A stretch of 64,000 nt of DNA from Gyrodactylus bullatarudis. Taxonomy: Eukaryota; Platyhelminthes; Monogenea; Gyrodactylidea; Gyrodactylidae. A program made the translations under genes and the position numbers. The notes under the pieces were generated by a model. The model did not search any database and had not been told where the DNA came from. It was given only the letters and a program-made list of their open reading frames with translations. Positions 23,272 to 57,100 of this stretch are shown one piece after another. The stretch covers positions 186,001 through 250,000 of the forward strand of contig SSNU01000272.1 in the NCBI GenBank assembly GCA_012064415.1. The letters run 5' to 3'. How positions within the stretch are numbered: the first letter of the stretch is position 1; every line of letters starts with the position of its first letter.

Positions 23272-23786
23272 TACACACTAGAGTTGGACGAAATGAGAAA
23301 AATTTGAGAAAATTGATACCTAGGATATGGTAAAAATAAAGAGAAAAAATTAAAAATAAGAACTGGCCTATCTTAGGCCAAAATAAAACCCAAATTACCA
23401 AAGAATTACTCAATTATGTACTACAGATTGCTTTTTCCGATGAAGAATTTTTATAATTTGCATTAATAAAATTTGGAAAAGATATTACTTTTTTATAAAA
23501 AATACAAAAGAACGCTATTGATTGATTGAAAAAAGTTTCAATTTCCAAATTTTAGAACATTTAAAATAAACATAAATTGCAAATAAATAAGGAACACCTG
23601 TGAAAACTTGAATGAGCAGTTGTGTTCAATAGAAAATGATCGACATGACTTCAACAGTTGCGCTTTTAGCATGCATAACTAACACAGTTTGATGAATTTC
23701 AAAAATAAGTTCATTAGATAATTATAAATTATATTTATCTAATTTATAATCAATTGTGAGAGAGTGTAGAACAGTTCATTGAGGTT

Positions 23787-25842: not shown

Positions 25843-26200
25843 ACTTTATCATGTATTTAGTAATTATTGTCAATTTGTAGTCTAAAAGACATTAAACTTT
25901 GAACGCATATCAAAGTTACGCAAATGATAAGCTATATACGTTAATAAGTAATAATTGAAAATGATGACGAATTTTGATGTAAAAATGACGCATGAAAACC
26001 AGTGTTAATAGCTTAGAGACAACATAATCGAAAAAATACCGATTTCATTCAGTTTTCACGAATATTTACTTCATACGATACTCAATCTATGTATGTAATA
26101 AAATAATTATATATGTGGATACTTGTAAGTAGTTTCATTATTAAATGAATATTTGCTGATTTATAATACAATTGTCTATGAAATTGTAATACACTAAACT

Positions 26201-27157: not shown

Positions 27158-30100
27158 TTACAATCTAGGATCAATCTGCAGGCAAAGTATGTGACAAGTC
27201 TTTGAGCAGGATACATTAATCTGATTATCTGGCTCAAAGAGATATTGGGAACCAGGTTTTGGTGGGTAATTCACAGCTAGGGCCTTATTCTGTGGGTCAA
27301 TTGAATGCCAATTGTGGCATTTCAACTCGGCTGCTTTCTCATAGTTTTGCTCCACATAACTCGGAACTTTTCCAATCCATACACATTTGTTACTGAAATA
27401 GAAAAAAATTATTTCAAAATATAGGAGTCTCATGTTTTTGCTTAAATTCCGAGGTTCGTTCTATCTAAAGTTTCAGAATAAAAGATAATTATAAATAAAT
27501 CTTAATTTTTTTGTCCGAATATTTTTCCTGACGACTAGCATTTGATATTTTGTCTTTCATATGGTTTGCTGATTACAAATCTTAAATCAGATTAAAGTCC
27601 TGACAAGCAATAATACTTAGTTCAATTAAAAATAGGATCAATTTTTTGATCCGAAACTCGACTATCCCTCAAGACTTTAGTCGATTTAACAATTGAAAGC
27701 TAAGAGTTTGATTACTTGATAATCACCTAAGTTCTATGACCTCGAGAAACAAGTTTTCAAAAAATGTTAAATTTTTTCAAAATAATCCATTTTCTTTAAA
27801 CTATTATAGCTTATGACAGATTAATTATAAAGGTAAGATCCTTTCGTATTTCAGAAGATTGTATCGAATTTAACGATGTATTTTCCGAGGCTTGAATAAA
27901 TGCTTGCGAGTTTCTAGCAAAGTTTCTTACCAGTAAAGTAAGAGGATACCGGAATCAGAGAATTTAATTAAAATATATTGTGTAATTTATCGTATCTCTT
28001 TAGAACATTGATTGGCTCTTGTTTTGTCCTGAAATGGTTCTTGTTCTATGATTGTTTATATTATTTACCTGTCTGTAAAATCATTCAACTTTCATTTTAA
28101 TTTCTTAAATCTCAAATAAAGTACATTAACATCACTTTATTATTGTTTATCTCTTTTTGTCTCTCTATATATATTTTTATCCTGATTATAAATGTATACT
28201 ATTTCGATGAAGCTGTTAAAGACTGAAATTGATTTAGAGCATATTTAATTTAGAATGGTAATATTGCCGAACTTGATCAAGTACATGTATTATTATTAGA
28301 TTCGAGCAGCGAACCTTTGAACCAATGCAATGTTACTATATAAATTTAGTCCGGGGTTAAGTCTGGGGTTATACTTTTATAGATCACAAACTCTTTTTCG
28401 TTTTTAAGTGCTTTATTCAATAAAGTTTATTGTCTGTAACGTTGTTCGCTTGCTACCTGACTATATTGTCTTATGGCTTGTATTGGCATTCATATGTTAC
28501 CGTTAATATTGTTACTCTTGATAGTCCCAACTTTAGACTCTCAAGACTTCAAGTCAGATAAATTTCTTACTCGGTTTCAAGATTCAGAATCTCTTTAAGA
28601 TCCAATTAAATTAAATTTATAATTTTTATCATATTATAATCATAAGAATTATTAGAGTCCATGCTATCTCTAAACTTAATTTCGATTTTCCTTCAAGTGA
28701 TGATTTATTTTCAATCAATATAACTATCTTCAAAGAAATATCAAAATATAAATGTTTAATAAACATTCTTCATCTTTTTCTACAGAGCTATAAGCTAAGA
28801 TTCAAGCCAGAAGACAACATAGTGAGGTAGCAAGCGAACAACTTTATAGACAATGAAAAACTACTTGGTTCAAAAATATAATGTAGTGTTTCATGTTGCT
28901 AATCGTGGTAAAACCAATCAAAAGAGTCGTTGATTTGATACATTTTCGCGTACTCTTCTCTAGAGAAAATGCATAAGAATAATAAAGAAATCTGTTATTA
29001 TGGCATAGAAATAAAGTAGAGGATGAAAGCTCTCCATTTATTGATAATACTACTGACTGTTACACTGTTGGTTTTATTTCTTATTTTTGAGTATTATCGA
29101 GGTACACATGAACAAATCCCATATACTGGACTATTGAAAAAGGTAGAATGGGATAAATTGGTGAAAAAGAATTCTCTTCACTCTTTAGAAACAGATGAAT
29201 TTCCAACAATTGAAGAGCTGAGATTTCTACAAGCTTATCTCGTAAAACAAGGAGTCAACCTTTCGAGGAATACGATCAGAAAAGGCCAGAGTGTTCTCTT
29301 CTTATTACCTTATAGGAGAAGGCCGAAAAATCTCCTCTATTTTCTTTATTACATGTACATGTATCTAAGATCATACGAGGGAAATTTCAAGTTCCTAATA
29401 ATCCAACAATCAGATGGAGACAAGTTTAAAAGGGGAAATCTGTTCAATGTTGGAGTTAAGCTGGCAGACGAACGAATGAAGGAATACAGTTGCTTCTGCT
29501 TGCACGATATTGACGATGTACCTCATGATACTTCAACTAGATACTTTTGTGAAAATCATAGCATCCGACAGTTATCTAAGGGAGTAATTAACCAGAATAC
29601 AAACATAATCAGTGTTTATTACCCTGATTATACAGGGGGTGTAACAATGGTAGTTAAAGATGCCTATATCAAAATGAATGGAATGAGCAATTCCTTTTCC
29701 GGCTGGGGTGGGGAAGATGACAATTTCAAGCTAAGAGCTGATATAATGAATGTTAAGATCAATCGGAATGATCAAATACTTTTTACCACAGTCGATCATC
29801 CTGAAGACAGGGATCCTGATCAATCAAGATTTGAAAAATCAACAAAGCAATATGTGGCCGAGACTTTTGGCAAAGATGGCTACAATACAACTAAATATAA
29901 AATAAAATTCTTTGAGGAAAATAGTCTTTTTATCCGAGTTATTGTTAACCTTTGAGTCCTTTTTTATAATTTAATAAAACTGTATTTTTTTCTAAAGATT
30001 TTCAAATTATCTTGAATTGCAAAATGAGGTATTTTGATCAATTTCACATGAAGGAATACCTATCTATTAGATATTTTAAAACTGAAAGTTTAATAAATAA

Positions 30101-33100
30101 TAGTAATAAATGTAGATTTAATTGGAATATAACCTGTCCCAGAAGTTTCAGTACTGAGATAGTCAAGTACCTTCTTCAGTTGATGAGAAGATTCTTTAGT
30201 TTTTAGATAATGATAGTATCATCCTCTGAAGAAGGTGTTCGACCTGAAATTTCTGAAAGAGACTTTGGAAAATAGTTGGTTTCAATTTAAAAATACAAAG
30301 AACTCACATAGAATCATTGATTTCCTTCCCATCAAAGTCAAGGATATTAGCACTAGGAGCTTGTTCATTGCTGATCATTGATTTGAAGTCATCAAATAAT
30401 TTTTCTCCCTGATGAAAAATAAATAAAATTCTTGGCATATTAACTTGAAACTCAAGGGTATATGTATTTGAAATAGGATCAAGTTTCCCTGAGAAAAAAT
30501 GTCTGGATGAGAAACTCACGTTGAGATTTACAATTGGAATTGAATACCTCAACTCTGGTCGAAGTAAATAATTCATATTCAAAACATCAGTACTGATAAG
30601 GGGATAGTAGAAGCGGCCGAGGTTGACGTTCTTTGCAGCTGATTGACACTGGAAAATGGCACCAGAATGTGCTTTGTTTACTGTCGCTAGATCTGAGCGT
30701 AAATCTCCCCTAGCTGGCTTGGTAAGGGCAACCAAGAAAAGCTGAAAAAATTCAAATCAAAAGTACAATTCACAATCTCTCATTTCATTTTGCATGCAAT
30801 ATGTTAAATTGGGATTAGGAAAATTCAAAGTAGAGATTTCTAAGCTTTGATTGGGTTTTTGTAAGATTGATTTCCATCTGAAGAGCCTATTAACCCCTTG
30901 ATACCGACTTAATTACAAAAGGCTTATTTGTGACTACATGAAATAAACGTAAAAACAATAATCAATGGATATTGAAGCCTGATAGGGTTAAAAATGATCC
31001 GAGTTTAAATTCTATGATTAAGAAAAGGACCCAGAAATATAATTGTTATTTAATTTGTGTTACTCAAACTTACAGTTTGATTTCGATACTTTGGTCTGAC
31101 AGTGCGTAGTGGCTTTACGGTAGTCTAGAGAATAAGTGAGAATATCATCTATCATTTTTAATTTCGTGAGAGACAGTACTTACCGTGACTGGCGGTGGGA
31201 TATTGATTTTTTTATCTTCTTGATTCTGAAAAAAAATTAAAATAAATTTATGATGCAAAACAAGCAGTTTTTGTCTCTGAGTCGATTATTTCATCAGTTA
31301 TTTCTGAAACTCAATAGAAATGTATCTGGGAATAATTATTTCGATTTTTAAAAAGATAATTTTCAAATCAAGATAATATGACACACTTTTACCAATGAAA
31401 GAAAAAATATTCTGGAAAATATTTTTTTTTCAGAGAAATGTGGACATTCTAGAATTTTGATTTGGCGCAAACCTCCCGGTTTACCAAACTATGAGCTCAA
31501 AATTTTTATTGATTTAAGAGGCGAGGTTTTTAGACAAGAAACCCTATTATTACGATTGAAGTTTTGCAAGACCCGTCCAGTCTGAAGGATCTTTATAAAT
31601 CGAAAATTTAGAAATTTTTAAGCAATGATCAAGAAATCGAAATTCGACTCTTTCTCGATCCTGTGGCTAACAATCAGTGATTATTAATCAGACTATATTT
31701 GACACATTTGATTTCTCTATCTAACTTTGTAATCCTGTAAAACTTCATTTGATCCCCTCATATTTTCTAATCAATTTTTTCCGGATTTTGTTCTTGTATT
31801 GGTCAAAATCAGATTTGAAAATTATTTTTATATCCCGTCAAAGAAATTCTTGTAACAATCAAAAGTTCTCAACTTCAAATTAACTAGTTTTACTCAATTT
31901 ATTTTGGTAATCAAACCATAATGGGATCACTGAGTAGTGTACCATAACTTTGTTCAGAATTCAAAAATGACACCCAAGGAATTCTTGTTTATCCAATATG
32001 TAAGGATATGATTATACATTTAAATAATATTTTTATTTTGTTTTTCAGGATTTCTTTAATAGAAACATAACAACCACTGTCTTTTGAAGTTGTTTTTTTC
32101 ATTTATTGGAATTGAAATAAAACTTTTTGTTCAAGTGAATTTTATCGACAAACTTCACGCATTTCTTAACACTTAATTCTTTTTTGTTGTCTATCAGAGA
32201 AAAATATTTCTCAATGGGCATAACCAGACAGAAAAAATATTTTTCCATCATCAATAAACAAGCCTTGTTCTTAGTGAGTAGTTCAAATTTTGTATTTGTG
32301 TTTGAATAGGAATAAAATTTCATTTAGATCACGAGGATTTCCTGAATTTCTTCTCTCACAGATGAGATTTTTTAGACAACTGATATTTTGAGATAATTAT
32401 CAACTTGGTTGAATCGAAGCCTTGTTTGCTTGTCGTCAGATAACATTAACTAAAAGGATGCAGAGAAATTGTTAAGCTTGCATTCAATTCAATTTTATCA
32501 GCTTTATTGAGGACTCTACTTAAAAGTATTATAAAAATTAACGTAAGATGAAACATTTTTTATTAAGAATAGTTAGAATTAATAGTTACTTACAAGTATA
32601 CTCATAAAAATACTCTTCAATCACTATCAAGAAAAATAATGAATCCTAGTATTAATTCCTTTATGACTAAGTTGGTTTTCTTACGAAATACTCGAAAATA
32701 GATCAAAAACAAGTTTCATTATTCTGTTTTGTTTCAGTTTGAAGACTTTTTGGGATTCCAAAGATTCGTTTAGTGTTAATTATATAAAATAGATTGATGT
32801 GAAGCTTATTATTGAATGAAATTTAAAGCAAGAGTCGGAACGGAATTTGATAATTTGTATACCATTCACATTTCAGAACTCTCTGAAACTTGTTTTAGTC
32901 ATCAAAATATTATAATTTTTTCATTACTTATCAGCAAAATGGTAGAAGCAAAATTCAAATTATAGTACTTTGAGTGGTAGAGTTTAACACTAATAGATAT
33001 TAATTTTCAAATTAAGACTGATCCGAGTATAAAAGTTCATTTTAACTGATTATTATGCTCTGGTAGATTTTCTACAGGCTAAAAATGTTGACAATCGATT

Positions 33101-36100
33101 CAAGTACAGGCATGAATATTCATGTTGAACTTGAACTGAATAACAGAGTCATAAATAACAAAAATACAGTTAAATTGGAAAAGATGAAGCTGTTTTTTAC
33201 CCCAGATTCAAGGAAGCTACTGTGTAATGATAGATACCTTTAGGATTCTCACATATTCATGTGAAAAGATGAGAGGGGCTTCATTCCTTACAAGACAATG
33301 AATCAAAAACAAATTAATCAATCAATGGTATACTGTTCCCTGAGTGGAATAAAGGATAGTAAACTAAATCTATAGCTCTCTTTTGATCGGTTAGATTATT
33401 AATTCTGAGACAAATTGTACAAATTAAGCGTACAAACTTGAGAGAAAGAAATGTGAAACTTTCTTCAGCTCAAAAATGGGGGCATATGCTTAGATTGACA
33501 ACATGCCTTACTGTTTATTCATTTAATCATATGATAAGAGCTGTTTTCAAAAATTTATAAATTGTAAAGATTTTTTGATACTAGACCAAATTTAAGTCCG
33601 GTTTTACTGATTAGGAATACACAGTGTAATGGTTTAGATAAAACTGTAGGCTTAGTTCATAAAAAATCCCTCCACTTTTATACTGTATTACAATCCGATT
33701 TCCTTTGGTGACCTTTGTTTGTTGAATGATTAATAATAAAATAAATCGATATAACATACAAATCGGCTTGTACATGTGAATATTGTTTAGTCAGCAATAG
33801 GAAAAAGAAAACATCAGATTGTTTACGGAAACTCACTAGATTAATTAATCGCCACAAGTTATCCTCTTCAGCTGTTTTAAGATAAAAATCGCCACTCTCT
33901 TTGATGTAGGTCATAGTTCCAGCTGGAAATTTGTAAGCTAATCTTGCCAGGGATTCCTTATCCTTTAATACGATTGCCTATTTGATGATTAAAACAATAA
34001 GCATGATAAAATAGGGAAAAAATCGAATAATTAATTTCCTCAGAAGAAGGGAAATAAGAATTTGACGGGGAAATTGAAAATTGTCTGGAATATTCCTATG
34101 AATTGCCATTTCAAAAAAATGTGTGATTTCAACTCAACCCGTTTGAGAGAAGTTGCTTTTGTCATCCACCTAACATCTATCGAGGAAGTTTCGAGGTGCT
34201 TTTTATCCAAAACATAAGCAAATAGGTTCTTTGAATTTTGTTTTGGTAAGGATTGATCCTGATAATACCTAAATTATTTACCATTTTAACCCCTTCGTAG
34301 TGATCGTCTAAAATAGTTGATTAAGAAGTTGTATACGACCTCTGGGATCGACTGGGTTGATGAAAATTGACCAAAATAACTTAAATTGATTTCATTATTG
34401 AAATTGTGGCTCAAAAAAGTAACAAGATTTTCAAAAATTATTTGGCTTATTTCGAATGATGTTACAATTTTGCTTTAATATCATCATGTTTCTTTTTGAT
34501 TAATATCACAATTTGAGTTGAGACAGGACTACACTAGGGGCAGTCTTGCCATGATGATCTTTTCGTTAATATTTTGTAGTCGGGATATAGATTAAATCAC
34601 CTCGAATAAATTAGGAATACAATGGAGCCATTGAGAACAAAGTTTAGGTTCAATGAGCATTCACGAAAATGTCGGTTCTTTTACATTTGATCTGATCATA
34701 AAACGATACCTGAAATAAAGTTTGAGAAAAGCATCATTTCTATTCTCTGTGATGAAAGCGATTTTCCTATGAAATCAAAGAAGAGACGAAAAAATCAGTG
34801 TATTTACTAAATGATCACATGATCTTGCTTAACAAATCAAAAAGTGATTCAATCAGATGATTTGAAGTTGAAGCAAACAAAAGAGCTCTCAATGTGCAAT
34901 TTTTTTCATTTTTTGAGAGATAACAAATAAAATCACGATGAAAAATACAAAAGAGATTCTTTGCACAAGAACTTGAACTCACTCCATAGCCAATATTTTG
35001 AATTGCTTTGGTGATTTTATTCTCGATGGGACCTTCTTCGATTTCATCACGTTTAGTTCTACCACCATCGATTTTGATGGTGTCGGTGCCTTTACAGGAA
35101 CTTTGTTCCTTTGAGCATAAATCATTTCGTAGGGAATCAACGAAACCCTGGAGAGAAAAATAATTGTGTCACTGATGATTGATGAAAGAATTTTTGATAT
35201 TCAGATTTTAAAGCAAACAAATAGGTTAGAAAAATGTCACTATATGAAATCTTTTTAATTTGTCAAGGCACTCGGGTACTTACTACTTACTTGTTGAAAA
35301 AATCAGAAGTTTTGGATAAAATGTTATCTTTATCCATCAGCTAATCCACTAAAAACTACTTACGAACCAATTAAATTAATTTTTAATTGATTGTGTTCTC
35401 GAAAAATCAATGTTAACTTTCAATAGTTTTCAGTTCAAGCAATTTCATTTCAATTCCGCGCCAATTTAGAGCCAATTTGAAAATGTAGATTTTCGAGTTT
35501 CTGATGAGAAACTTGAGAATTTCGTAAAAGTTTTTCCTAGTATCAACCAGCTTTAAACAGAAATGCTTATAAATAAATAAAAATATGGTTCAAAACTTTG
35601 TCCAACCCGGAAACGAAATGCCTCAACCTCGCCACAGCAACCCAAAGCGAGGAGAAAACAGGGGAAGAGAGCGGCAACGGGGACCCAGATAATCCAAAAA
35701 TTCTTCACAACCCCCAAACAGTGACTATGCCGATCCCATTGGCCAGTAACACAAATAGACATTGGTTCAAAACAAATGAATAATCGCTATTGGTCAAGAC
35801 TATCTTGCCATGCTCTTTTATTATGTATATATATAATTTCTAAGTCGGTGTAAGGTCTGAAGAGAGCCGACGAAAATAAAAGCTTTTATTCACCCAAATA
35901 ACTTCGTCGTTCTAACCACCAGCATAACCATTAGTCAGCATCCACTGAATATCTTCGAGGAAATAAGGCAATTAATGTCTCAAAATTATAAATAAATAAA
36001 AATATGGTTCAAAACTTTGTTCTTCCATTACAGTATCAAAGATTGGAAATGTTTAGATTTAAATTTAGGAAATTGATTTCATATCACTCTCTTTTTAAAT

Positions 36101-39100
36101 AGAAATTTCTAATTCTCCGTCCAAGCAAAAGAGATTTAAAAGGGAAATTAGTACTGTAATTGAAACTTCCAGAAATGAGAGAAACAATATTGAAGGAATT
36201 GTAGGCAAACTTTATCAAAAAAGAGCACGACGGAATCTGATTCAGGTTAAGTAATGATTGCTAAAAACAAATTATAAATGACGGAGATCAAACTGTCGTT
36301 GGAAGGAAAAAGAGCTAAATAATTTTTAAAAATCGAAAATCAAACCTGCTCCAATGGATCATTAATAGAAAAGAAATGAATGGATCTAGTCTTTGTTTTA
36401 GACAGTAAGAATCAGCAGAAAATTCTCTATTCCAAGGACTAAACTTGAGTTTATTTTTTTGGAAATTTCGACCCTTATGGTAGTCATACATTTTTTTCAA
36501 CTGTATAAATCTTATGGAAAGTCACCTACTTGCTAAAAAAAAGAGACATTCTCAACATACAACTTATTCCTACAAGGGTTAAATCAGACAAAGATAGAAA
36601 AACATGCTAAATATGCAATAGAGGACGGCTAAACTCCTTAGTGTATTTAACCGCATATACAAGAAATTTAAGTATTGAAAGCTAAATTTAAACATATTCA
36701 GAATCCTCTGTATTTGCTTATTACTAAAATCTGTTCAAGAATTGAAGTTTTGATAGTTTTAAAAATTGAACTGTACTCTAATATGCAATATATTTGTTTC
36801 AGAGATTTTCATTAGTAATAACTTTTGCTTTCTTTATGTGTGAATCGCTTATAAGTAGATTGTACAATTTTCTATAGTCTTTTGAAAAGTAGATCAAGAT
36901 CAAGTAAAATGAAATTATCAAAGTAAACGTTATTGAGATGGTTTTCAAAAAATCAAGAAAATAAAATTTACTAAATGTGCTTAAAAGGATTCACATAAGT
37001 ATCGTATCGTATTTCGATTTCTTGATACTGCTTACAGCCAATAAAAAAATACAGATTCTCAACTTGATAACTGGACAATTTTGAGTTGAACAGGTCTTTA
37101 ACTCTTTAAAATGCTGTTAAAATCCCCCTTTGTTCATTCAATAATTGTCAATAAGAGAATTAGAATAGATTTTTGATTCGATCATTACATTTCTCACTTT
37201 GTCATTGGTGAGTATTTCCTTGATTAAACTTTTCAATCTCTCTCTAATCAGGGGATGTTCTAAGTTGGCATCACTACCCTTTGGCCCACTGGGTCCTGGT
37301 AATCCGGGGAGACCTGGATCACCTTTATCACCCTTCTCGCCTTTCTCGCCCTTCTCGCCTTTATCGCCTTTATCGCCCTTGTCGCCTTTATCACCCTTTT
37401 CACCGTTAATACCTGGTTTACCCTAGTTTAAGGAAAGATTAAATCAGATAATAATTTTGAAATTGTCTAACATGACGTACATCTTCTGTTTTGCAGACAC
37501 CTGGTGGGCCTGGATCTCCCTTTGGTCCAACAAGTTTATCTTTGTACTAAAAATTATGATAATATCATTGATTTAGCTTTAACCATAGTCGAAGAGTTGG
37601 AAAATTTTTTTATCGTTAAAAAGTTACTATGGAGTTATCAGACACTGATATCATCCTGCTTACAGGGAGATCTTGCTCCGAAAGATTATCAAAAATCATC
37701 AATTCAAGAATAGATGTTTTGGACTCACTAAACGAGTACCTGGACCAAAAACCCCTCAATGTAGAAATGTATAAAAAGAAATCTTGAGTATTTTGATGTG
37801 TAGCTTAATGGAATATATTTCACGAATTTTCCAATTAATGTTCATTATAATTTTTACAAATTTTTTTAACTTTTTAACAAAACCTAATCTATGTGTTCAG
37901 AAAAACTATTCCTATAATCTTCAACTACCTTGGCCGATGTGAGCTTTTTCACCTTTCTTTCCATTGTTGCTATTTATTGGAGAGTTTTAGTTTTTTTTCA
38001 GCTTATATTTATTCTTAATTCTTAAACTTTTGCTATTTCTCTCAAATTTGTAAATTTTCATTCAATAACTTAATTCTAATCATTTCTAAAGTGATACTAC
38101 TGATGATCCTTTTAAAAATGTGCACTTGATGTTAATACATCTTTTACTTCTATTTTAACTATCAAGGTGGAATGAACAAAGATTTAGACTAAATTGAAAA
38201 AGTGTAATAAATACTTTTAAAGTTGTGATCTTTGACATTATTGTAACTTACAATTTGTAAGGCAACATTCTTCATTTTAATCTGCTATGTGCTATGTGAG
38301 AATAAGGTGACCTCTTCTAAGAAATATACAACAAAAAAACATTGTATATGACGTTTCTGTTCAAGTACTCTTGCTTCAGCACTTGTTTTTAGTATGAGTA
38401 AAATTTGAACTTTAAAAATTCTTATAAATTTGGAAAGAAATGAAAGACTTACCTTCTCGATGAAATCATTCAAACACGAACATTGGTTCTGGATAAAGAA
38501 GAAAGAATGTATTTCTCAAATGAACTGAATATGTAAAACTATCAAAGCTGAACATACGTTGGTGTTCTCGTCTGCTCCATCCATTGATTCGGCTAAATGA
38601 AGAATAACAAATGTGAAAATTGGAAAAAAAATTTAACTCAAACACAATCGATTCTCTCTTGAATTCTGATTATTGCAGGACGAAAATAAAAGTATTTCCA
38701 TAGATAAATGTAAACAATTTGCCACAAAAAAATGATAAATCAATTCCGAATTATAATAGGGCCTCAAAAATAACAGAATATTTGTTTTAAGCGCATTAAA
38801 TTCAAAATTATTATTCTTTTCGATCCACATTACAGAAATTAATGAATTTATGACTCTGAGTTTCAGAAGCTTCAAGACTTTTCAATGCTCTGGTGATTAT
38901 TTTCTCAAAAAACATGGTGGAATTACTGCCGCTATGAAACTAAGATTTTAGATAATTTTCATAACACTATAAAAATCGAATTTCTCATGAATTCAGTCAG
39001 TTGGAATAGTTTCAATCAATTTTTCAGAGTTGATTTTCAAACATTCACTGATAGTAAATCACACAAGAATTTCAGATACAAATAAGATAGAAATAATAAT

Positions 39101-42100
39101 AATAATAGATTGATCAGTTCGTAAATTATATTAATTGGTTTGTACTTAATTGTTGCTTGGAAATGAAATTCAAAATAACCTCACACGTGTAAGCTAGGCA
39201 CAACTAAAGCAAGAAAGATGAGATGCTAAAGAAGGCTTGTCAAGAAATGAGGCTTTTCTCTCATCAACTATATCTAAGTTTTCGTTAGAAAATATCTACA
39301 TGAGTCTCAAGTGAATTCATAGCTATATCACGCTCTCTTTTTGTTTGTAATGGAAAAAATCAACATGACTCACATTTTGGCGGTACTTCCTTCATCTCCT
39401 CTTCATTTGGCTAGAAATAAAAATTGGTTAAAAATTTCTCAAAATAATTTTTTTATATTCATCCACACAAGATTATAAATTATAATCATACGTTATGAAT
39501 ACGCTTGAATGAGATAATCAAAAAACAAAATCTGTATTTCAGTTAACGTCATGCTGTTAGATTAAAAGACAAGTTGCTCATATTCTAGAAAGAATTCTGA
39601 AATTATCATGGCGATGAAACATCTTAATTATCAATCTAGTTTTTTATTATTTTTAAAATTAGGATCTAGATAAAGATTCAAGATCAGACATCAGGTGAGA
39701 TGAGAGAAATTAAAATAAACTCCTAGATAAGATCACACTACTTAAACTCTTTGTGTCTCATGACGTCAGGCATGTTGGTGTAAAATCTTTCTATCAATGA
39801 GCAACTGTCGGAGGTATAATTACAATTGAATACAGATAATTATCCAATATTATTATTAAAAGATTAACTTTATTAAGTCATTATTAAGTCTTTTAATATT
39901 TTCTGAATTAGTTGAATATTTCACTTGTCTCTTAAAAATCGTATGAGAAATAAAATACATCAAATAATTCAGAAATGAAAATACTATAAATTTTTTCATG
40001 CAGATATTGAATTATTTTCTCATTGGATTCGTAATAAAAATTTAAAACAGGAAGAATTAAGTGATTTTCGAAATATTTTCTTTTCAAATTGAGAATAAAA
40101 AACTCAAATTCGCTGTAAAATCATAATTATAAAGTCAAATGATTAGAAATTTTAACCTTCCCCTTTAAAAAGTTCTGTCAAATTCGCATAAAATATGGCT
40201 CATAATTAATTAAAACTTGTCGGCTTTGTAATTATAAAACAGCCCAAGACTCTTGGGGCCAGGAATCACAAATTTTCATACAAGTTTCGATCTGTTTTAC
40301 ATTGATATTTTATATTCGGAAATGAATACATGAGGATCAATAAATAGGTTACAAGAGAATTGATCTTCTTCCTTAAGATTGAATGTAAAGATAGATCTTA
40401 GGTGTATTTGTGCTATGAATCATTCCTCTTGTTTTTGCATTTAATTAAATATTCTGTATCAATAACATATTATTGATATATATATTGATGTGGGGAGATA
40501 CAATTCTTTTTGAATGAGGTACATTAAGATTGACGATAAGTACAAAAATTTGGGTTTTTTAATCTAATTTGAGACAAAACTACGGTAAGAGTATATCTTT
40601 ACAAGTTAAAGTCCGTTTAACGAACAAGTAATCATATATATTATTATAATAATATAATATTATATATAATTTTTGTTATTCGGAAAATAAATAAAAAAAA
40701 TTATACATTTGTTATAAACGTTTTTTATATGTATAGAGTTTGGAAAATAAAATTTAACCAATTAAACATTGAATAAGTATACAGTTCATATAATAATATA
40801 CAGGATTCTCTTTTCAACTGCTTTTCGTTATTCAGTTCTAACCTTTGGAGGATCACCTGAAAGAGTCTTTCCAGAGCACTCATGAAAGCCCTTCTCCAAC
40901 CACCTCACTCTCTCATTATTTAACCAGATGAAACCATCGTATATTTCTTTATAGTCTATACTTTTCTTACGCTCATCGTAAATAGTCATTTGCCCACCAT
41001 CTGGCATGTTAATTTCAAACCGAGGACATTTAAATAGAGGCACCCCAAATGGTTTTTCTGAATATCTGAAAAAAACTTTTGAATTGTGTATGAAAAAGTC
41101 TTTAGTAATCTTTTTCATATTCCTAAGGTCGTATAGGAAGGGTTTGCTTGAATTCTTATCATGAAACAAACGAAAGCCTTCCAGGTCGGGCGGTAAACAA
41201 TTATTTGGGATATATGCACCAGTTATCCTATTCAAAACTGGGGCATTATCGTCTGGAGTTTGTATGATGATCATCTCTTCATTATTTTTTGGCACCGAAA
41301 GAGGCTCTGAAGAGGAGTGATTCTTGAAAATGGCCCTATCATCTTTGACTCCGAGTATTTCTGTTACTCTTTCATGGCGAGAGTCCCAAATAACAGGAAC
41401 TTTGGTTTTGGGATGAATTGTTAAAATATACCTTCCACATCCAATAACACGAGTTAGTAACTCTCCAAATGTTCCATTCTGTAAGATTAGCCTGTTGTAA
41501 GGTGAATGTTTCAAGTATGATAAATTTTCAAAAGATGTTCTATCGAAAACTGAGTCATTATGATAACAATTCAAAGCGTACTCCTTGTTAATCCCTTCTG
41601 GTTTCACTTTGCCGAGAATTTTTCCACTTTTATCGTAGAGTTGTCCATACTTTTCCTTTGCATTCCAGATTAAACTTTTCGATGCAATGTCAATATATTC
41701 AAGATCCCCAGTTAACCTGTTGACTCGGGTTATAAACTTGTAGTTGATGTCTCTTTCAAAATCTGACAATAACTTGATATAGCTAATGTTCTTATCAGTC
41801 TTATTGACTGAATTGAAATCGAGAGTAGCAACAAAATCATTCTGAAAACTGTCAGCATCATCCAACTTTCGAACAGTAAAGTTTTTCGGGTTGGCTACAA
41901 GAAGCTTCAAAAGTTGTATCTTATCAAAGAGATTTTTTTCAACAAAATTCTGATTTATCTGGTCATACAAACGAATAGAATTGAGATCTTTGGATACCAA
42001 TAAAACAAAACGATTTTCATATAACTCCAATGGATCTGGTAGGAAGTAGCCACTTTTTAAGAGAATCTTCCCGTTGATGATACTTTCTATTCGGTCACTT

Positions 42101-45100
42101 TGATTTTTTCTTGAGGAAATTCGAATTTTTCCTGTCTCAAAATTGAAATCGTAGTTGAGTTCAGATTCCCGGATTTTAAACGAGCCTAGAATATCACCCT
42201 CAGAGGTATAGAGTATTCCTTTGTTCGGATAAACCTTTCTAATTATCCGATTTTCATTAAGAGTGTAGAATTCACCGATTGTTTCATTGACTTTAAGTTC
42301 AAACTGTCTAACCTCTTTGGTCTTTATGACGTTGATTGGACCATCTACTTTTTTACCTGTTAGATTGTCATAAATGTTTTCGTCTTTAACTGTTAAATAG
42401 TCAACAATCTCATTTGTTTTTGAGTTAAGGAAAAGAAATTTCAGTTCTCTCGGATGAATCAAAATCTTGAAGATTTTCCCCCGGCCAACAACTTCGGTTA
42501 TGATGTGACCGTCAGCCGAAAAAAGAAGGTCATTTTTCAGGTAATATGTCACATTTTCACCTTGACACGTTATTGGCTTATAGCTGCTTGAAGATTTTTT
42601 TATCAACTGAATTTGACTAAAGTAACCTCGTAAGAAGTACTTGTAGAAGGAATTTAACATTGATTTGTCCATAATATTTTCTTGAATCATGTCAAATGTA
42701 AGAGATTTATAAAAGGCTATCGTCCCTTGGCTTGAATTAAACTTTTTAAAGTATTTCTCCCGGAATTTGTTGAAATTAGTAAAGTAAAGACTCTGATTAC
42801 TCATGAATCGTGGCAGACCACAATTTGTTTCGATAATTTGTATATTCTCATTTGTCTCTACATCATGTAAGTAAGGCTTTGATTGGCTTTCATCAATCAT
42901 CAGATAAAATCTATCCCGCTTGACTGTCTTCAGCTCGGAAATAAAGTTAGTCTTGTTATCAAAGATGAAACGTCCATCGATAAAGTAATTATTTAAAATT
43001 TCCCCATTGTCTCGTCTGGTGAGCAATAACTTGCTGTTAACCGGTTCCACGAAAAGATTACAAAAATTTGAATTTGCCAGGTGTAAAACAGGACTCGACA
43101 AATTACAAGCTGGATTTGATATGGGCAAGACTTTGAGTTTTTCATCGTCAAAGTAATACTTTTTCTCGTCAATAAACTGATACTTGGCAAAGGTATGATT
43201 GTGCATGAACTTGACACGGTGTTTATCAAATTTTATCGGATACTCGTTCTCATTGACAGAGAGAACTAAATTTCCATCGATATAGTTGACATTTGCATTG
43301 GAGGGCCATTCTGATTTCACATAGTTGTGATTTTCAGAGATCTTTCGAAATTTTGTTTCTGTCAATGTGTCATAGATCCATGCTAAGCCCGTCTTTGGAT
43401 CAATAAACTCAACATATTCTGCAATATTGAAATCATTCGGCTCGAGAATGCCTATCAGGTTGCGTGTTTGAATATTCCAGATGAAGCCGTTCTCAATATG
43501 TAGATCGATAAGCTCCTCTTTGGTTGCAGTGTCAAGATAACGAAGCATTTCATTGCTCATGGCATCATAGTAGACGTTAATATTGCCAAATTTCCCAACG
43601 CGTGGCCAGATAATGTCAGAGACTGTTTCATTTTCCGGGAACATTACTCTACCATCCAGGTCAAATTCAAAGCTTGTATCTTCTTCATTTCTCTGCTTGA
43701 CAAGAAAGTTATTACCAAGGGAATATGTATCCAAGAGATCTTTGTCGATTAACTCGATTGGAGAAGCAGTCTCATGCATCGCTAACCTACCAACTATGGT
43801 ATATCCTTCCAGTTTCTTTTTATTAAACGCTGACTTCAAAATCAACTTGTTATTCTCGTAACTAAGATAGACATCTTTTGGTTCAAAAGTCTTTTCAATC
43901 CTATTGAAATTAGGCATTATCGGAAATCTCTTTGATCTAATGTAAACCATTGAATTGTGAATTTTTGCTAGGCCTAAATACTTTGAAGTGATTTTATCAA
44001 TAAGATATATTTTTCCATCTTTTGGATTAAGATTTAAGGTTATATTAAGTACTTGACCAATTTCTGGAATTGCTTCTAAGCCAATTGAAGTATTACCAAA
44101 GTAAACTGTTCCGTGCTTTATGTAAACACTTGTATTATTGATTTTGAAATGGTTTTCATGATCAATCCACAAATCCTCATAGTAAAAGAGATAATCTGAT
44201 TCATACTCCTTCAAGAATTCATTATAAATTCGACCATTTGTAATCTTGATGTGCTTTTTCAGACCGTTATCTCGCATTAAATCTACTGGTAGCTTTAAAT
44301 CTTTTGGCAAAAAGGGACTACTCGGATAATATCGGCAGCCATCTTCACTATAAAGAGTTCCGTTGTAATCTTTCAAAGTGGAGAAGCCATTGTTATCACT
44401 AGTCTTCTTGAGATTTCCTGAATACTTGTCAACGATTATCTTTTCTTCAATTTGAATTCCTCTAGTGATGAAAATTTTATGTTCATTAATATTGAGCATA
44501 CCGTTCTCATGTCTATATTCACTTGGATAGAGGACTAACCCAGATTTCTTTTGAATAATGAAAAATTCACCGTTCTTATAATCAAATAAGAAGGAATATT
44601 CTCCAGCCTCGCCAATACTTTTGAAGAAATTTCCATAAATTTTATTCGTTCGAATATCGATCATGTTAGGAAATTCGATATTGTGAAATTTTGAAATCAC
44701 ATCAAAATAATACAATTTCGCCTGACCATTATCAATTAACGCGTGCACTTTCGGCAAGTAATCATTGAGCGGTTCCTCTATAAAAGTACCATTCTCTTTT
44801 CTTATTGTTCCATTAATTATTTTATCAAAAGTTACTGTCCTTAAGAGTTCCTTGTCATAAATTTGAACTTTAAACAAGGAAAAATCCAAAATAGGCTCAT
44901 ACCTTGACTTTTCATGAAGAAATCGACCTATCTTTTCCCGCTTCAAATTGAAAACATAGGAGTCCGGTGAAAGATAGAAATCTTGAAGTTGATCATCGAT
45001 TTGATCAAAGTTGAGAAGGACCTGCTTCCCGGTTTCATGGTCTATTCTTAGATTATAATTTGCCATTTTATAAATATCCTGAAGACAAACCAAAATTTCA

Positions 45101-48100
45101 CCATCAACAGAGTCAGTATTGTGGAAGCAGCCATTCTCCAACTTTGTCTCATTAAGTTCCAGAATTCTCATTTCAAAGGTGTCAATCACTCTCAGCATTT
45201 GGCTTGATAGATAATCAAAAAATATGAGGTATTTCGTGTTGAGCACTGGCAAAATTATTTGACCGGCAGTCTCACCTTTTATTCTACCATAATCATCTAG
45301 CAATAAGTTGTCCTCTTCTGTTCCATCTATCGTTGATATTAGGGAGAATCTAGCCGATTCAATATCAAGGCCTAGGATCGATGTTGGTTCCAACTCCTTG
45401 ACCTGTGCGTACAGGGAGCAACTGATAATGTTCTCATTGTTCTGTAGGGAGAATATTCGACATTGATTCTCATCGATTGTCAAGTAGTCAGATGGATAAA
45501 AGTAAAAGTTACGTATCCTCCCGTAGTCCCTCAAGTAAATGTGACTGCTCGTAATTTCTTGAATGTCATATTCAATGTTATTCACTCGGTCTAAAAGGAA
45601 AATACTGCCTAGCCTCCTCTGAACAAAAGTAAACTGATTCAGGATATTTGGTTTTATTGCATTTCTTAAACTGGTGGTCAATGATAAGAATTCCCCATCC
45701 ACCTTATTGTTATGGAAAAATAAACAGCAATATTTCTTTTTAAATTGACAAATTGGCCTGTAGAATTTATTTGATGTAAATGGCAGAATTTGCCGATAAT
45801 ATTCATTCCTCTGATTTATGATAGATCCTTGTACAATGAGTAGATCTTGAATTATTTCTCCAGTATAAACATTGGTCAAGATTAGATTATTGTCAAGGAA
45901 ATTAGTCTGAATTATCAAAGAGCCTATCCTTATTGGCAGAATAAGTGGCAATTCTATTGAGTTATTAACAATCACCCTATTATTGGCGAATTTCCAGTCT
46001 CGAGTCCTCTTATGGTCTGGATATTCTTGCAGAGATATCTCGAAATTTTCAACATCAATGTCATAATAGAAATATTTATCAGATCCATTTTTTGGAATAT
46101 CTTCCCATAGAGGGATATTTATCCATGTTTCATCAGGCAACAGAAGTGAATTGGCATTAGCCAAGGTCTCAACAAAGCTAATCTTATTATTTGGGTCTTG
46201 AAAGACAATCTTAAGAGAGGTTAGGTCGAAAAAAAGGCTATCGATGAGAGCTTCTGAAAAGTTATCCTTCAATTCAGGAGGTTTTGGCGTTGACTATTCG
46301 GTGAAATATGAATATGGAATGAATTACATGAATAATGAGTAATATGTGAGTTTATTTAATCCCCTATTGACCATTAAAAAGTTTTTTCTTTAATTGATCT
46401 AATTTCATTGGTCGTTGCACATTGCAAGAGTAAACTAAGAATACCTCTTCAAAATGAAGAACTGTGTTTCAGGTGTACTTTTGGCAATACTTGAAAATAA
46501 TTAATGACTACGCTAAAATTTTTACCTAGCAAGATATATACCATGAATAGATCCCCTTGAGACTAGTGCAACAAATACAAACTGTATTTGTAAGGAAATT
46601 GAAAATATTCCTAATGGTCAAGAGGGGATTTAAGATCACCCTTAGGTAACCTCGTTATGGATGATTTGTCAGGATTAATTGGAAAAATCATAACTCAAAA
46701 GATGAAGATAATTTTTAACTTACAACTGGAACTGGTTTCTCAGTCTTTATAGAAAGAAATTAGAAAATAAATGGCGATTTTGAATCATCATCATTCTACT
46801 CACGTTTACATAGTTGTGTATGTAACCGAGATTGCTGTCGTATGGGTTTTTGTCAAATTCCTTGAAAAAATAAAATTAAACAGCAAGTGTTGGAATGCAA
46901 AATGATTTGATCAGTTAATCTGATTTTGTGAGCTACAAAATGAATTTTTTCTCTAATTTTAAAACAGTTCCTTTCTTCCTCTTCTCTTGAAAGGAAGACG
47001 AAAGACTTAATTGAAACAATTGATCAAGATTGAAGCAGATTGATATAAATTTAGATACTCCCAAAGTGGGTAGTGTATTGGATCTTTTGTATCCTCTTGA
47101 CAGATTTAAACAATGCATTGCTCAACATTAATCATGAATCTGGAAACTAATGTTACTCTTAAGACTCCCTGATGGTCTTGAAACTCCCTAGTTAGTTAGG
47201 AAATCTGGAAACTCGGTTTCTAGAATCCCTACTCGAGTTATTCATAGAAACAGGGAATCTAGAAACTCAAGGAAATCTTAAGAATCACTGGGGAATTTGG
47301 AAACTTACTTAAAGAATAAAAAGTCGGACTATTGATAGCTGATACCTATCTAGATAAACTATTATGACATCTTGAGTTACATTAAACAGTATTTCTTTTG
47401 GATTTGTACTTATTAAAAGCCCATTTTGTTTTTCAATCACATCGAATACACCCTTGGCTATTAACTGAAGATTGCAGGCTATTCAACTTTTTAACTGAAA
47501 ATAGAATCATCGGGTACATTCTCTAGTTGAATAAAATTTTCTTCGACTGGTATCAATTAACTCACGAAGTCCATCTATTCTCCCATTTGGCGTCCCAATT
47601 TTATAGGAACTATCATGTTCCTCTATTATGAATCCATCAATTTTTTTGTGATCAATATTTGATTTTTCAACCTCAGGAATTGAAATCATAACATTAGTAC
47701 CCACTGAATATTTTATTTTTGTTCTTTCATTAGTTTTCTGTTTTAACATGACCCCCTTTAATTATAACTGACAATTTATTTCTAGCTCATTTTCAAGTTT
47801 CTAAATTCCCTAAGGATTCTTAAGACTTTTCGAGTTTCTAGAAATCAAATTCCTTTGCAATGTAGGAATTCTTAAGACTTCTTTAGGCTTCAAGATTCCC
47901 TGTAACTATGAATAACTCAAGTAGGGAATCTAGAAACCGAATTTCCAGATTCCCTAACTAACTAGGGAACTTCAAGACTATCAGGGAGTCTTAAGAGTAA
48001 CATATTTATATTTTGGTGAAAGAAAAAATTTTTTCAATTAATCTGATCATCTTTTGACATTCAAATTCTATGCTCTTTCCAGTTCTCACGAGTCAAGCAT

Positions 48101-51100: not shown

Positions 51101-54100
51101 CCCATGTCGCTGGAGGTTACAGCTTACTAATGGATCTTACCGAGACTGGTACGAAAGGAACTGGTAGTTAGAAAACCTTAGGGGTACGCCAGAACATATA
51201 GAAGTAATCCGAGTTGCATGTGATGTTGGACGAGTGGATTGAGATTTGGACTACAATGCGAGAGGTCTATATGTATACCTAGATTAGTAATACATCATCG
51301 GTGGGATCCATTAGTAAGCTGTAACATCCAGCGACATGGGCTAATCCATTACCAAATAAGACGTTCCTGTGGGATATATTTCCTAACCACCTAGAACGAA
51401 ATATTTCTAGCTAAATATAAAATAATAATAATACAATACTGTATTGACAATAATATAAAATCATAAAAATGGTCAAAAGTACATTTAATCGATGAAAAGA
51501 TTCAACATACCTGGTCTTTGATGAGACATGGTCGTTCATCCATCCTATCATAGAATGCTAATTCTCTTATGGAACCCTAAAAAAGGGGGGATAAATTAGA
51601 TACTTTATAAATTCCTTGGTATAATATTTCTCTTTTTTCTTCCCTTTCCTATTAAATTTCTTATACACTTTTTTATGTGTAGATTAGATCAGTATTATTA
51701 TTATTGTTAAATTATTCACCATGTCGAAATACAAAGTGCATATTTTCCATATTTTTGAACTGGTTCCATTAATTGTTTCATCCGAATTAAAAAAAACCAG
51801 ACATAGGCTTGAAGAGAGAGAACGTTCAAGAAAAGGGGATAGCTGATAGGAAACTGAAAGTTTCAAAACCTCTAGAAAAGAAAATAACTTCTTTTGTATA
51901 ATTTATGGTGCTTCAAGCTAGAATTTAACACCTTCTGGCTTAGTAATACTACGAGGAATTTTCTGAGAAGAATAACATTGAGATTCTAGAAATAATTCAG
52001 CGGGAGTTTAAGGGTTAAAGTTGCTTTCAGCAATGATTTAAGGAGAAAGTTAACCAATCTTACCAATTAATCCATTGTATTTTGAATCTATTTAAGAAAC
52101 TACTTCTGAAACCATTTATTGTTAGTAAAAACTTGTTACAATTGAAATATTTTACGTCCGAAAATCCACTTAAAATTAGTAGAAAGATAAAGAGATAACT
52201 AGACATCTTAGACAGGAGAAGGCTTCAATTTCTAATTTTTCTATTCTATACAGAAACCCAAGTGATGACAATACAGATGTTTGGGTGAAGGGGTAATTCT
52301 TCATCAATTTATACAAAGCAGACTTATGTGTTCAAAAGAAAAATTGCTATGGCCAATGTAAGCTTTTTCACTTTTCTCTCCATTGTTGCTATTTATTGGA
52401 AAGTTTTAGTGTTTTTTTCAGCTTAAATTTATTCTAATCTTCTTATATTCATCTTTTGACTTTATCATTTTAAAAGAGACACTACTGATGAATTTTTGAG
52501 AAATGTACATTTTGTGTATCTTTTTTTAATTTTCAAATATTCAATTGGAGTGGAAAACAATTCAGATGAATAAATCTTAATACACAATAAATCAAAATGA
52601 AAGCGCTCAGTTCTTTGTTCTCATTAAATTGAAAAGTAATTTGAAATTTTATCTCTTCTTCATGTGTTCAATTAAAAAAAGCTTTGTGTAAAGATAATAA
52701 TGATATCAGACGAGTTACTTGGCATTAGTTCAGCAAACACGAGATACATTTTAATAAAATTAATATACATTGAAACATATATATATTATACATGTGCTTC
52801 GAAGACTTTGAATAAAGGTAAAATGATTACTCGCTAGCATGTGATTGGCCACTTCCTCCAATTGATTTGATTCAGTTTTATAAGAAATTTGAAATATTTC
52901 GTAGGAGCCTTTTCGCAAAAACCTAATAGCCATTGTTATTACCCAATAAGTAAAGCTAATTGATAAATTCTTTACGAAAATCTCTATATTTTCATCAAGA
53001 AGGAACTTTTATGATTATTAAGCCCGCATTTTTTATGTTTTTGAGAGAGATAGGAAAAATTCATCTCATAAAGTGAAAATTTTTTGTAATTGATTGCTAT
53101 AGCTGGAACTCAGTAAATCCGTATCATACTCGTTTTCTTGATAGAATTCATAGATTCCTCCACTTCATACCAAACAACTTTATTACCTATTCTAACTAAA
53201 GCTAATTGATATGAAGTTGGGAATCTATGTTTTTTATAAAAATCACAATTTTTTAATCAAGATTTCGAATGTATTAAAGAATTTTAGGAAACGAGATCAT
53301 TTTCATTCTAAATCAAAAGTGATTGAATAAAGTTTTTCAGGATCAAGATAAGAGGAGAAAATCAATCATGCTAAATCTGTTCTATTGCTTCAACTCATAA
53401 TCTTTTGGTAGCTAAATTTGGATTTCTAGATCATTTTTCGATAATTCAAAATCCCTCAAAAATTCTCGTCTTGTTGTGATCTTGCAAAAGTTTTTTTGAC
53501 TCACTTTCAGATCAACAAAATAATTTTAAATCAATATTTTTCCTCAAATGATAAAATAAGGAAACATCATTTGAACTCCTAAAAATCTCCATCAAAATAT
53601 GTTTCCTGACGAAAAAATTGAGATTATTTTTAAAAATAAAAAATTCCCATCTTCAAATCAAACCACCTTAGTTTAAACGGATCCAAGAACCTTCATGGAT
53701 ATTCAAGGATTGAAAATGCAATTGGTATTTGATTTAAAATTTTATTCTCTAATCAAGATTCCTATTGAAATACAATACAATTTTTTCATTTTGATTAATG
53801 ACGTTGTTGATATAATAAAAACAGAAAAATTAATTACAGTAATATTGTTTCATGTGATTGGAAAAAATGCGTTTCTTCTACACTTCGCAATAATTTTGAT
53901 ACCAGGTTTCAGTTTGAAAGAAATTAATCAGATAAGAATTATTATTTACTGGAAGAATATGTGTATGCCTACAGACAGACTTGTGACTTGCTTCAATATT
54001 TTTCCATTATCTCAATCTAATTATAAGCATGTTTTTTTCAAGTTTAAAAATCAATGATAATGTTGTTACCTTGAATTTTTGATTCGAGTAAGATGGACCA

Positions 54101-57100
54101 CGGTTCAGAATGTAGAGAACAGCCCCCTGTCTGAAGAACTCTTGGCTCAGAGGGGATTTGCTTGATACACTGTGGTATGGTGTTAATTTAAGCTCAGAAC
54201 AGCCAGTATACAAATTGATCTGGAATAGAAATTTATGAGGTCTTTTTCCACACTAATTTTTCTCAAAAGCCCTTACCTTGTCATCAATGAATTGTAGTCC
54301 GATATTATAAAAGTCCTTCTTCTGCGGTATATAAACAACGAATTCAGTCATTTCTCCATCGATTGGCTTCAACATCATTGATAATTTTATCGTTTTTGGG
54401 AATTCCGATACCTTTTGAAAGAATCAACTTAGAAATCATTTATCATTTATGTGTATGAGAATAATTAATCCTCAAGACAGAAACCAATCAATCATTGAAA
54501 CTGCCAGAGAAGAAGATTATGTTAAAATAAAATGAAATTTAAAAGTAAACATTTATGTGTAATCACTTGGAATTTGGATTGAAAATATAATTTCCTAATT
54601 ATGTTTTGCTTCTGAATATTTGGAAAATTCAAATGATTCAATTTTCCAGTTTAATCATGGGCAGAACACTGCTTTTCTCATAAAGAATCTGAACTTAACA
54701 TGTGTAAATTGCTCAGTTTTTTTCATTGACATCATCATACCAAATTTCGGTCGAAAATATCTTTTTATTCTTCTGAGATAAAATACAAAAAACGAAATTT
54801 TCAAATAAAAATCGTTTTAGATTAATCCAAATTGTTATTCATTGAGAAGTGGACATTCAATCAATTTTATATTCAATCGAACGCTAAAAGAATCTTTACA
54901 GTTGTATCAAACTTCCTCAAACCTACATCTAATCAAAAACTGTATCTAATTTTTGAAAAACTAATAAACTGATTGGTTAATAAATTTCCTAGGGATCGAA
55001 AATGAAACTGAAGCTGTAAGTTTAATATATAGCGATAAAATATTGAATGAGTATAGTTTTCATTTCTACTGCAATTTTTTGATGTATAAGACTTGTGGAT
55101 TCTCAAAAAGTTCTAGAGGTGTTATGAATAAACTGGATGATTTCCTTTCTAAATGCATCAAGTCATAAAATTACTTATTATCAGCTAAACTTGTTACTAG
55201 TTACAAGATTCCCGGGATTCTTGAGACTATCAGATAATCTTGAAACCGAGTAAAAGGCTTTATTACTATAGTAACAAGTTTAACTGAATTTCCAGGGTGT
55301 CTTGAGACTATCAAGAATGACAAGATTAAAGGTAACATATTATACATCGAATATAAGAGAAACTGGCTTTATCATAAGTTAAAAAACAGTTTCATTCAGA
55401 TTTAACGCGGTTCTGCAACTGTTCTGAAAGAATAACGTAAATTCACGAAAATAAAAGCCAATTTTTATTTGAAAATTTTCTTACAGATTCATAGAAAGAT
55501 ATTTTTAAAATACTTGAAGAATTGGTTTAGGCGATTTTAGTAATTTTGAAAAATTTCGTTTCATTCGATTTTTTGAGATTTTCAACCTTAGTTCTCATAA
55601 AGCTACTATATACCGAAACCAAGAAACTATTTATTCTTCAACACCTCTAAAATTATTGGAGACCTTGAAAATTTTGAGGAAGATCTATCTCAGGAAAAGG
55701 ACAATATCAAAAAGTTTTGTTGAGAGAAATCTAAAAACAACAGAATTTTGTGTAAAGTATTGAAACAAATTGAATAAAATTTTCTCATTAATCTCAAGCA
55801 AAACTTTTATTTTTCTTTTAGTCTGTTTGTTACTGTGGCTTATTCAACTTGTATTTCATTTCTCTCATTCAAAAAATATAGCTTTACTCTAGTAGATAGG
55901 TTTTAATCTGATAACGATCAACAATATTTCGATTTTCTTGCCAAGTATGTACTCAGTTTAAACTGAGTAAAACCAGATGTATTTTTCGAACCTAGTTTTA
56001 ATTACCAATCTCTATATTTCCCAGTTATATCTTCTTTTAACTGCAAGTAGTTCCACTTTAGTGAAGTAAAAATATTCGTTAATAACGATTCGTTATCATA
56101 AGTGATGTGTTCTGCTTAAAGAGATCGAACTGTTCAAAGGAGGAACGTGATTTGTAAAAGATTCATTATTTCTTGTAACTATGTAATATTCATCATCATA
56201 ACTTTTATTATCAATGTTTATGATTCGGTTAAAGTAATCAAGTAAATAAAATAAATCAAAATTAAATCAGTTAAGTGAGAAATCAGGATTTTTTTCTTCA
56301 ATTAAACATGACGAGTAAATGTTTCAAAAAGAAAACATTTGCTTAGGTAATTGAATTTTGACTATGGTTTTCAGTGCTAAAACTTCTAATTTATTTCATT
56401 ATAGTTCTGCCCTCATCTTATTTTCATCATCAACCATAAATTTTTTACATGAGACATATTCAATATGAATCATTAATAGAAATGATCATTCTTAATTAAT
56501 TTCTGAGACTTTAGTCTGATGTCCCCAATGTTTCACTATCTCAAAGTCATAGAATTCTATTTTTTTGCAGAGAAAGAGAGCCAAATTATTTATCTTCTCA
56601 GGATTCTAAATCAGCGTTTATCGGTATTTTCAATTAAATTTAGTTTTCGGTCAATCAACTCTAATCAAAAAGTAATACGTATTACAATTCAAATGTCAAT
56701 CTGACAATTTCGATTTACACCAAAAACTAAACGTTCAAGGCGTACCACTAACTTGAAATCCTTGCTGTTGAAAATTGCGATTAGAAAACTTTCGAAAGAC
56801 TCACTGAAACTTTGAGGAGGAACCTCTCCACAGAATCAATATCCAAAAGAGAATAAATTGTATACTCTTCTACATCTGCGTCTGGTTTGAATATTGCATG
56901 GAGAAATAGTTCTGACTCAAACTTGCGTTCTGGAAAGACTTGGTCAGCCTCAATGGAAGGCGACCTATCTTCTAATTTAGCAATGTTGACCTCGACCGGA
57001 AATTTAGCATCAGTGGGAATGTTTACTCCATAGACTGTGTTTAAATAAACCATCATGTCCCCACGAATTTCTGTGGTAAAAGTAAAGTTATTATCAAAAA

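Follow-up and report, generated by a model that had tools for sequence, protein, structure and literature searches.

Our analysis of a 64,000-nucleotide stretch of the genome of the monogenean flatworm Gyrodactylus bullatarudis (GenBank assembly GCA_012064415.1, contig SSNU01000272.1, positions 186,001 to 250,000; hereafter the window) points to a member of the collagen XV/XVIII group, the multiplexins, in which most of the chain is not collagen. On the minus strand of the window, an open frame of 1,817 codons with the statistics of a coding sequence lies in phase between predicted small exons and upstream of collagen and endostatin sequences. We consider it probable that these elements belong to one spliced gene encoding a secreted multiplexin, in which a 1,817-residue array of beta units (the block) separates a TSPN-like head from a short collagen. 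Coordinates are those of the window, and the gene is on the minus strand throughout.

The giant exon occupies positions 46293-40843, where the frame remains open for 1,817 codons up to a donor at 40843. From stop to stop the frame spans 46293-40831, or 1,821 codons, with the closing TAA at 40831, four codons beyond the donor; the runner-up among the stop-to-stop frames of the window, in a list that leaves out frames running off its ends, has 449 codons. Using a codon table trained on 1,396 codons from elsewhere in the window, with the giant exon left out, the log-odds of the giant frame is +192. The other two minus-strand frames over the same exon score -30 and +54 and contain 118 and 220 stops. 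On the opposite strand, the three frames score +81, -12 and +17, with 95, 107 and 125 stops. All 36 full blocks of 50 codons are positive under a table that includes the giant exon, with a minimum of +0.7 at codons 151-200. The first methionine of the frame is codon 366. As the 50-codon blocks before this methionine already look coding, the 5′ end of the block must come by splicing, and a first methionine so far inside also rules out that the block is an intronless gene starting in the usual way. Both junctions of the exon are in phase 0 (acceptor ...CACCGAATAG/TCAACG, donor CCAAAG/GTTAGA, the slash marking the junction), and the donor scores 5.5, a value reached by 46 of the 2,768 GT sites on the minus strand of the window (0.72 per kb). 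The 1,821-codon frame holds 29 N-glycosylation sequons. For Gyrodactylus nuclear assemblies, the available portion of PMC12677651 gives mean exon lengths of 228-347 bases, and the length of the giant exon, at 5,451 bases, is thus 16- to 24-fold the mean; the same portion gives assembly sizes of 67-91 Mb and a GC content of 31-39%, and the GC content of the window is 31.0%.

The identity of the gene as a collagen XV/XVIII gene is well supported by what lies downstream of the block, namely collagen, a weak trimerization match and endostatin. The block is followed by a predicted acidic and proline-containing linker exon (39374-39410, exon scan 14.4), a second predicted linker (38558-38592, exon scan 12.2) and an uncertain exon of 12 residues (38453-38488) with strong splice scores (6.6 and 8.2) and a coding score of only 0.1. 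The collagen itself is encoded by an exon containing GPKGDPGPP (37481-37546, exon scan 15.6) and by the main collagen exon (37198-37422, exon scan 34.7), in which ~17 Gly-X-Y triplets precede a non-collagenous tail. Pfam Collagen (PF01391) matches over the joined part with E 6.5e-9, and the ~20 Gly-X-Y triplets fall into two blocks separated by VCKTED. The triple helix of the model is ~60 residues long, far shorter than in known multiplexins. A further predicted exon (34983-35147, exon scan 22.7) connects the collagen to a trimerization-domain-like exon (33837-33977), after which two predicted hinge exons in phase 0/0 (31184-31225, exon scan 17.4; 31074-31124, exon scan 11.8) lead to the two endostatin exons at 30520-30741 and 30308-30408. 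Joining the endostatin exons raises the score of Endostatin (PF06482) from 31.9 to 41.3 bits (E 1.7e-10, cut-off 29.4, profile positions 1-99 of 170, in the joined C-terminal part), and the PDB endostatins of collagen XVIII (1bnl, 2.3e-7) and collagen XV (1dy2, 4.3e-6) also match. In the stretch 30408-30300, where the endostatin match ends at profile position 99 of 170, a TGA follows at the donor of the exon. An exon-by-exon search of the 77.3-Mb assembly, which could miss endostatins in small exons, gave a single place for PF06482. For the collagen IV C4 domain there are ten matches, spread over contigs C470 (654748-689356) and C443 (563515-564183), which indicates that ordinary basement-membrane collagens are present in the genome.

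Upstream of the block, the predicted gene begins with a first coding exon for a putative signal peptide (61544-61607), which came top of 19 initial-exon candidates on the strand. Its donor scores 8.3, a strength found at 2 of the 2,768 GT sites, itself counted, and its phase fits the next exon; a laxer scan gave one further in-phase start place, 63405-63237, with four nested starts and a donor of 4.9. The TSPN-like head is spread over four predicted exons, at 56805-57070 (N-terminal half, exon scan 23.7), 54277-54411 (17.8), 54070-54219 (14.0) and 51511-51576 (end of the domain, 17.3), the last three in phase 0/0, and was recognised by eye from a TSPN-type motif, ...INLYTGCS...FKGSIREL...PC, which involves the last two exons. 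Two small predicted linkers in phase 0/0 complete this side, one at 46804-46860 (exon scan 14.8) and a proline-rich one at 46724-46744 (exon scan 9.8), whose TEKPVPV leads into the STPKPPELK of the block. By eye, the proline-rich and acidic linker character carries on over both joins of the block. The intron before the block also contains an open stretch (47761-47510, minus strand) that by eye resembles the end piece of a transposase or integrase.

Exons were scored by codon log-odds combined with generic splice matrices that are not fitted to this species. The chain-finding script returned 29 pieces, from which we picked the model by hand. The two script halves of the giant exon were merged and ten pieces judged weak, transposon-like or unsupported (beginning at 51962, 51871, 51390, 50131, 47737, 47457, 35786, 34258, 29815 and 29702) were removed, leaving 18 exons, and the first exon was added later. 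The resulting 19 coding exons, several of them uncertain, encode ~2,440 residues, 1,817 of which come from the block. The original prediction had placed the block inside a collagen XV/XVIII gene, and this context is borne out by a block that lies in phase within a stretch ending in collagen (by Pfam) and endostatin (by Pfam and PDB). It had also described 25 exons with all phases agreeing and a block making up two thirds of the protein; the exons on either side, at 46744 and 39410, do join the block at phase 0 and its large share holds, but the count of 25 exons was not confirmed.

Within the block, a split made by eye yields 36 segments, 26 of which are 45-62 residues long. When each of 12 seed units was left out and scored against a profile of the other 11, ten scored so high that at most 2 of 200 shuffles did as well, and the mean of the ten top ungapped self-matches was reached by none of 60 shuffles. 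The autocorrelation is strongest for a shift of 11 residues (z 3.3), followed by 10 (z 2.8), and is also high at 21, 31 and 40, which gives a weak indication of a period of 10-11 residues, the scale of a strand. These patterns suggest that beta units of ~50 residues each, in a degenerate array, make up the block, and that the units are probably real, old and diverged; they differ too strongly from one another for a tandem expansion of recent date. A structure prediction for two units gave a run of beta strands, a meander with a weakly blade-like character, at a mean pLDDT of 60 and of ~70-85 over residues 1-50, and a 442-residue model from a single sequence was poor, with a pLDDT of 31.6. Teneurin and Sevenless are among the non-significant structure matches of the two-unit model (E-values 2.4 and 5.2). 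In PDB sequences, the best match of a 21-unit profile was PriL (E 0.092), and the propeller-bearing proteins SOQ1 and Atg16-1 were matched at E 0.91-2.4 only. A fold of beta meander units of ~50 residues, conceivably the blades of tandem beta-propellers, is a serious possibility for this region that we stop short of calling probable.

The block had originally been proposed as a new module, one that might have taken the place of most of the triple helix and been acquired in one piece, and family searches are in accord with its newness. No Pfam family scored over its cut-off (best Cbl_N3, E 0.12), and no match was found in NCBIfam, PHROGs or PDB sequences. The protein collection contained no match at E <= 1 to the whole block, to its residues 700-1199 or to the endostatin part (residues 370-604 once the block is taken out of the joined protein). 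Because the last of these was also matchless there, this collection says nothing on other animals and counts only against a well-sampled microbial source. Scans of viral contigs and prokaryote genomes, which reach close relatives only, found no close relative of the block. Its own genome holds no second copy of the whole block at E <= 0.001. A search with two pieces of the block at E <= 10 gave one candidate paralog on contig C443 (E 0.096), which is Asn-rich with stops inside and lies beside a kinase gene; it was judged a chance match. No repeats of at least 16 bases bracket the block as transposon ends would, and an inverted pair at 41070-41087 and 46370-46387 (18 bases, 89%), considered as an insertion scar, was likewise taken as chance. 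With the terms used and in the one literature library searched, no title or abstract start concerned a multiplexin with a large beta block.

Several observations weigh against a single multiplexin with a repeat array, or qualify its parts. The acceptor of the giant exon is weak (2.4), with equally good sites common at 16.6 per kb. An 84-base in-frame intron at 45702-45619 scores about the same as the unbroken giant exon, the split version being favoured by the chain-finding script by ~0.2 units, which we counted as a tie, and a small intron may thus lie inside the exon. The original observation of a 1,817-codon frame is confirmed by the open frame, the codon statistics and the phase 0/0 joins, with this tie speaking against the word uninterrupted. 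Shortly ahead of the last TSPN-like exon, at 52206-52064, there is a signal-peptide-like start (phase 1, donor 5.0) that is in phase with no exon of the model, yet might initiate a shorter product. Collagen_trimer (PF20010) is in the right place but under its cut-off of 23.8, with 19.8 bits in the genome search and 16.6 in the joined protein. The last ~40% of the endostatin profile was not found in the model, and this part may be truncated, diverged or hidden in small exons. For the head, Pfam gives just DUF7636 at E 0.1, far under cut-off, and neither NCBIfam nor PDB sequences give a match. The TSPN identity first assigned to it is accordingly reduced here to a likeness by motif.

The repeat analysis is qualified in the same way. 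The seeds were chosen by eye and aligned together before the leave-one-out comparison, and two of the 12 did not stand out from shuffled sequence, being matched by 63 and 48 of 200 shuffles. For the top ungapped self-match, 4 of 60 shuffles did as well, and comparing the block with its reversed sequence gives similar scores. Over 319 lags, the maximum of 200 shuffles averages 2.87 and reaches 4.76, which is above the observed z of 3.3. Of the 123 residues in the two-unit model, 45 fall under pLDDT 50, and the fold matches of the model are not significant. The beta-repeat nature first ascribed to the block is partly supported, by the seeds that beat shuffles and by the beta-strand model, but comes with a weak period and modest self-similarity; the motif given for it, hhhDPKxGxhhhhDxxT, fits some of the visible ~50-residue units and misfits others.

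The stop just four codons past the donor suggests a different arrangement, in which the signal peptide, the TSPN-like head and the block end at the TAA at 40831, through intron retention or as a gene of their own, and the collagen and endostatin come from a separate transcript of the same locus or a second gene. Known multiplexins have several isoforms, one of them without the central collagen region, according to the available portion of PMC7852327. Such a pair of products is nonetheless unlikely, given that the donor ranks within the top 46 GT sites of its strand in the window, that the 843 bases after it hold just ATTAAA, at 279 and 397, when searched for AATAAA and ATTAAA, and that no in-phase signal-peptide first exon for the collagen part alone was found in 42000-37560. 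We give still less weight to the block as a cassette exon that is skipped in the main transcript, so that the giant form would be a minor isoform and the usual product a small multiplexin. The symmetrical phase 0/0 would let 46744 join 39410 in frame, and nothing speaks directly against skipping; 1,817 codons kept open argue only for use. An independent nested gene, or a captured viral, bacterial or transposon gene, would suit a single very long exon among short exons and the absence of relatives in the own-genome searches above, but is very improbable given the lack of a methionine before codon 366 and of an in-phase signal-peptide first exon for the block alone just upstream (51500-46300 scanned), codon use that fits the other genes of the window, and the negative results in the protein collection and PHROGs, in the viral contigs and prokaryote genomes (for close relatives), and for bracketing repeats of 16 bases or more.

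One multiplexin chain carrying the array is thus the explanation we prefer, and from its sequence we infer splicing into one transcript, secretion, trimer formation and binding. Such a chain would contain, in order, a signal peptide, the TSPN-like head, the beta array, a short collagen helix, a trimerization region and endostatin. Its C-terminal region would join three chains in register, and the short collagen, with ~60 residues per chain, would make a stalk from which each chain would extend the 1,817-residue beta array as a long, glycosylated, non-collagenous arm. The product would be a three-armed multivalent matrix linker, unlike the flexible collagen thread of other multiplexins, and its likely site would be the matrix that underlies or separates muscle and epithelium. 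Multiplexins form trimers by way of their C-terminal region and have TSPN at the opposite end, as described in the available portion of PMC7852327. In planarians, the available portion of a matrisome paper (PMC6453901) gives three multiplexins and an expression of multiplexin-1 enriched in intestinal and dorsoventral muscle.

The flatworm protein shares with collagen XV/XVIII, including Drosophila Mp and C. elegans CLE-1, the C-terminal endostatin, the interrupted collagen triplets, the trimerization-like region and, by motif, the TSPN-like head. Known collagens XV/XVIII have non-collagenous linkers of 7-45 residues and several central COL domains (PMC7852327, in part), whereas the flatworm protein has ~20 triplets and a non-collagenous block of 1,817 residues between head and collagen. 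Extra domains also occur in another multiplexin, as in the CLE-1 isoform of C. elegans with fibronectin type III repeats (PMC7852327, same portion). Fibronectin type III is a known family, in contrast to the very large block of the flatworm protein with no Pfam match over cut-off. Colmedins such as gliomedin combine collagen with an olfactomedin beta-propeller, and a trimeric collagen stalk bearing beta-propeller heads is a plan that the flatworm protein may share, although its block has no olfactomedin match and its propeller nature is a guess. Teneurin and Sevenless are tandem beta-propeller or YD-shell proteins with large extracellular beta arrays; the block differs in having no sequence-family match, and its structural similarity to them is not significant.

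Other features of the window and the assembly were recorded. Three short collagen-like frames, at 22711-23268 (plus strand), 23760-24260 (plus) and 25309-25845 (minus), have a common C-terminal hydrophobic stretch (..FNPLxxxLMxxAYxxGK.. and alike) and may together represent a small mini-collagen family, membrane-bound or secreted. A beta-1,4-galactosyltransferase-like frame (29020-29952, plus strand, PF13733 and PF02709) lies close to the endostatin exons, at a distance of a few hundred bases on the opposite strand, and a MULE/Mutator-type transposase with a SWIM zinc finger occupies 449 unbroken codons at 12391-13737 (plus). The end of the window has a C-rich stretch (62360-64000, plus; GC skew -0.31 over 62001-64000) that by eye resembles a reverse-transcriptase element with frame breaks. 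Elsewhere in the assembly, contig C13 is a complete-looking flatworm mitochondrial genome of 14,926 bp, with TGA read as Trp and 12 protein genes on one strand. Read from frames and tRNAs, its order is COX1-T-(rRNA gap)-C-(rRNA gap)-COX2-E-ND6-Y...-ND5-G-COX3-H-CYTB-ND4L-ND4-Q-M-F-ATP6-ND2-V-A-D-ND1-N-P-I-K-ND3-S1-W, with the tRNAs Q-M-F between ND4 and ATP6, an order that, compared in part with PMC9407395, we take to fit neodermatan (parasitic) flatworms. A nematode origin was rejected, the exact SL1 spliced-leader pattern being absent. Gyrodactylus mitochondrial genomes measure 14.7-14.9 kb in the available portion of PMC9407395.

Our most far-reaching suggestion is more tentative still than the propeller fold, namely that a new extracellular beta-repeat family, perhaps of tandem beta-propellers, was built into a monogenean basement-membrane collagen and changed it from a thread to a trimer whose arms sit on a minimal stalk. 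Multiplexins are an old type of basement-membrane collagen that has been conserved. Should the mature chain really contain the block, some three quarters of this one would be an unclassified beta array, with the triple helix down to ~60 residues. A collagen would then be seen to be able to swap everything but its trimer-and-endostatin end, and matrix biology would gain a new natural trimeric scaffold. For flatworm biology, it would add a large secreted protein outside the known families.

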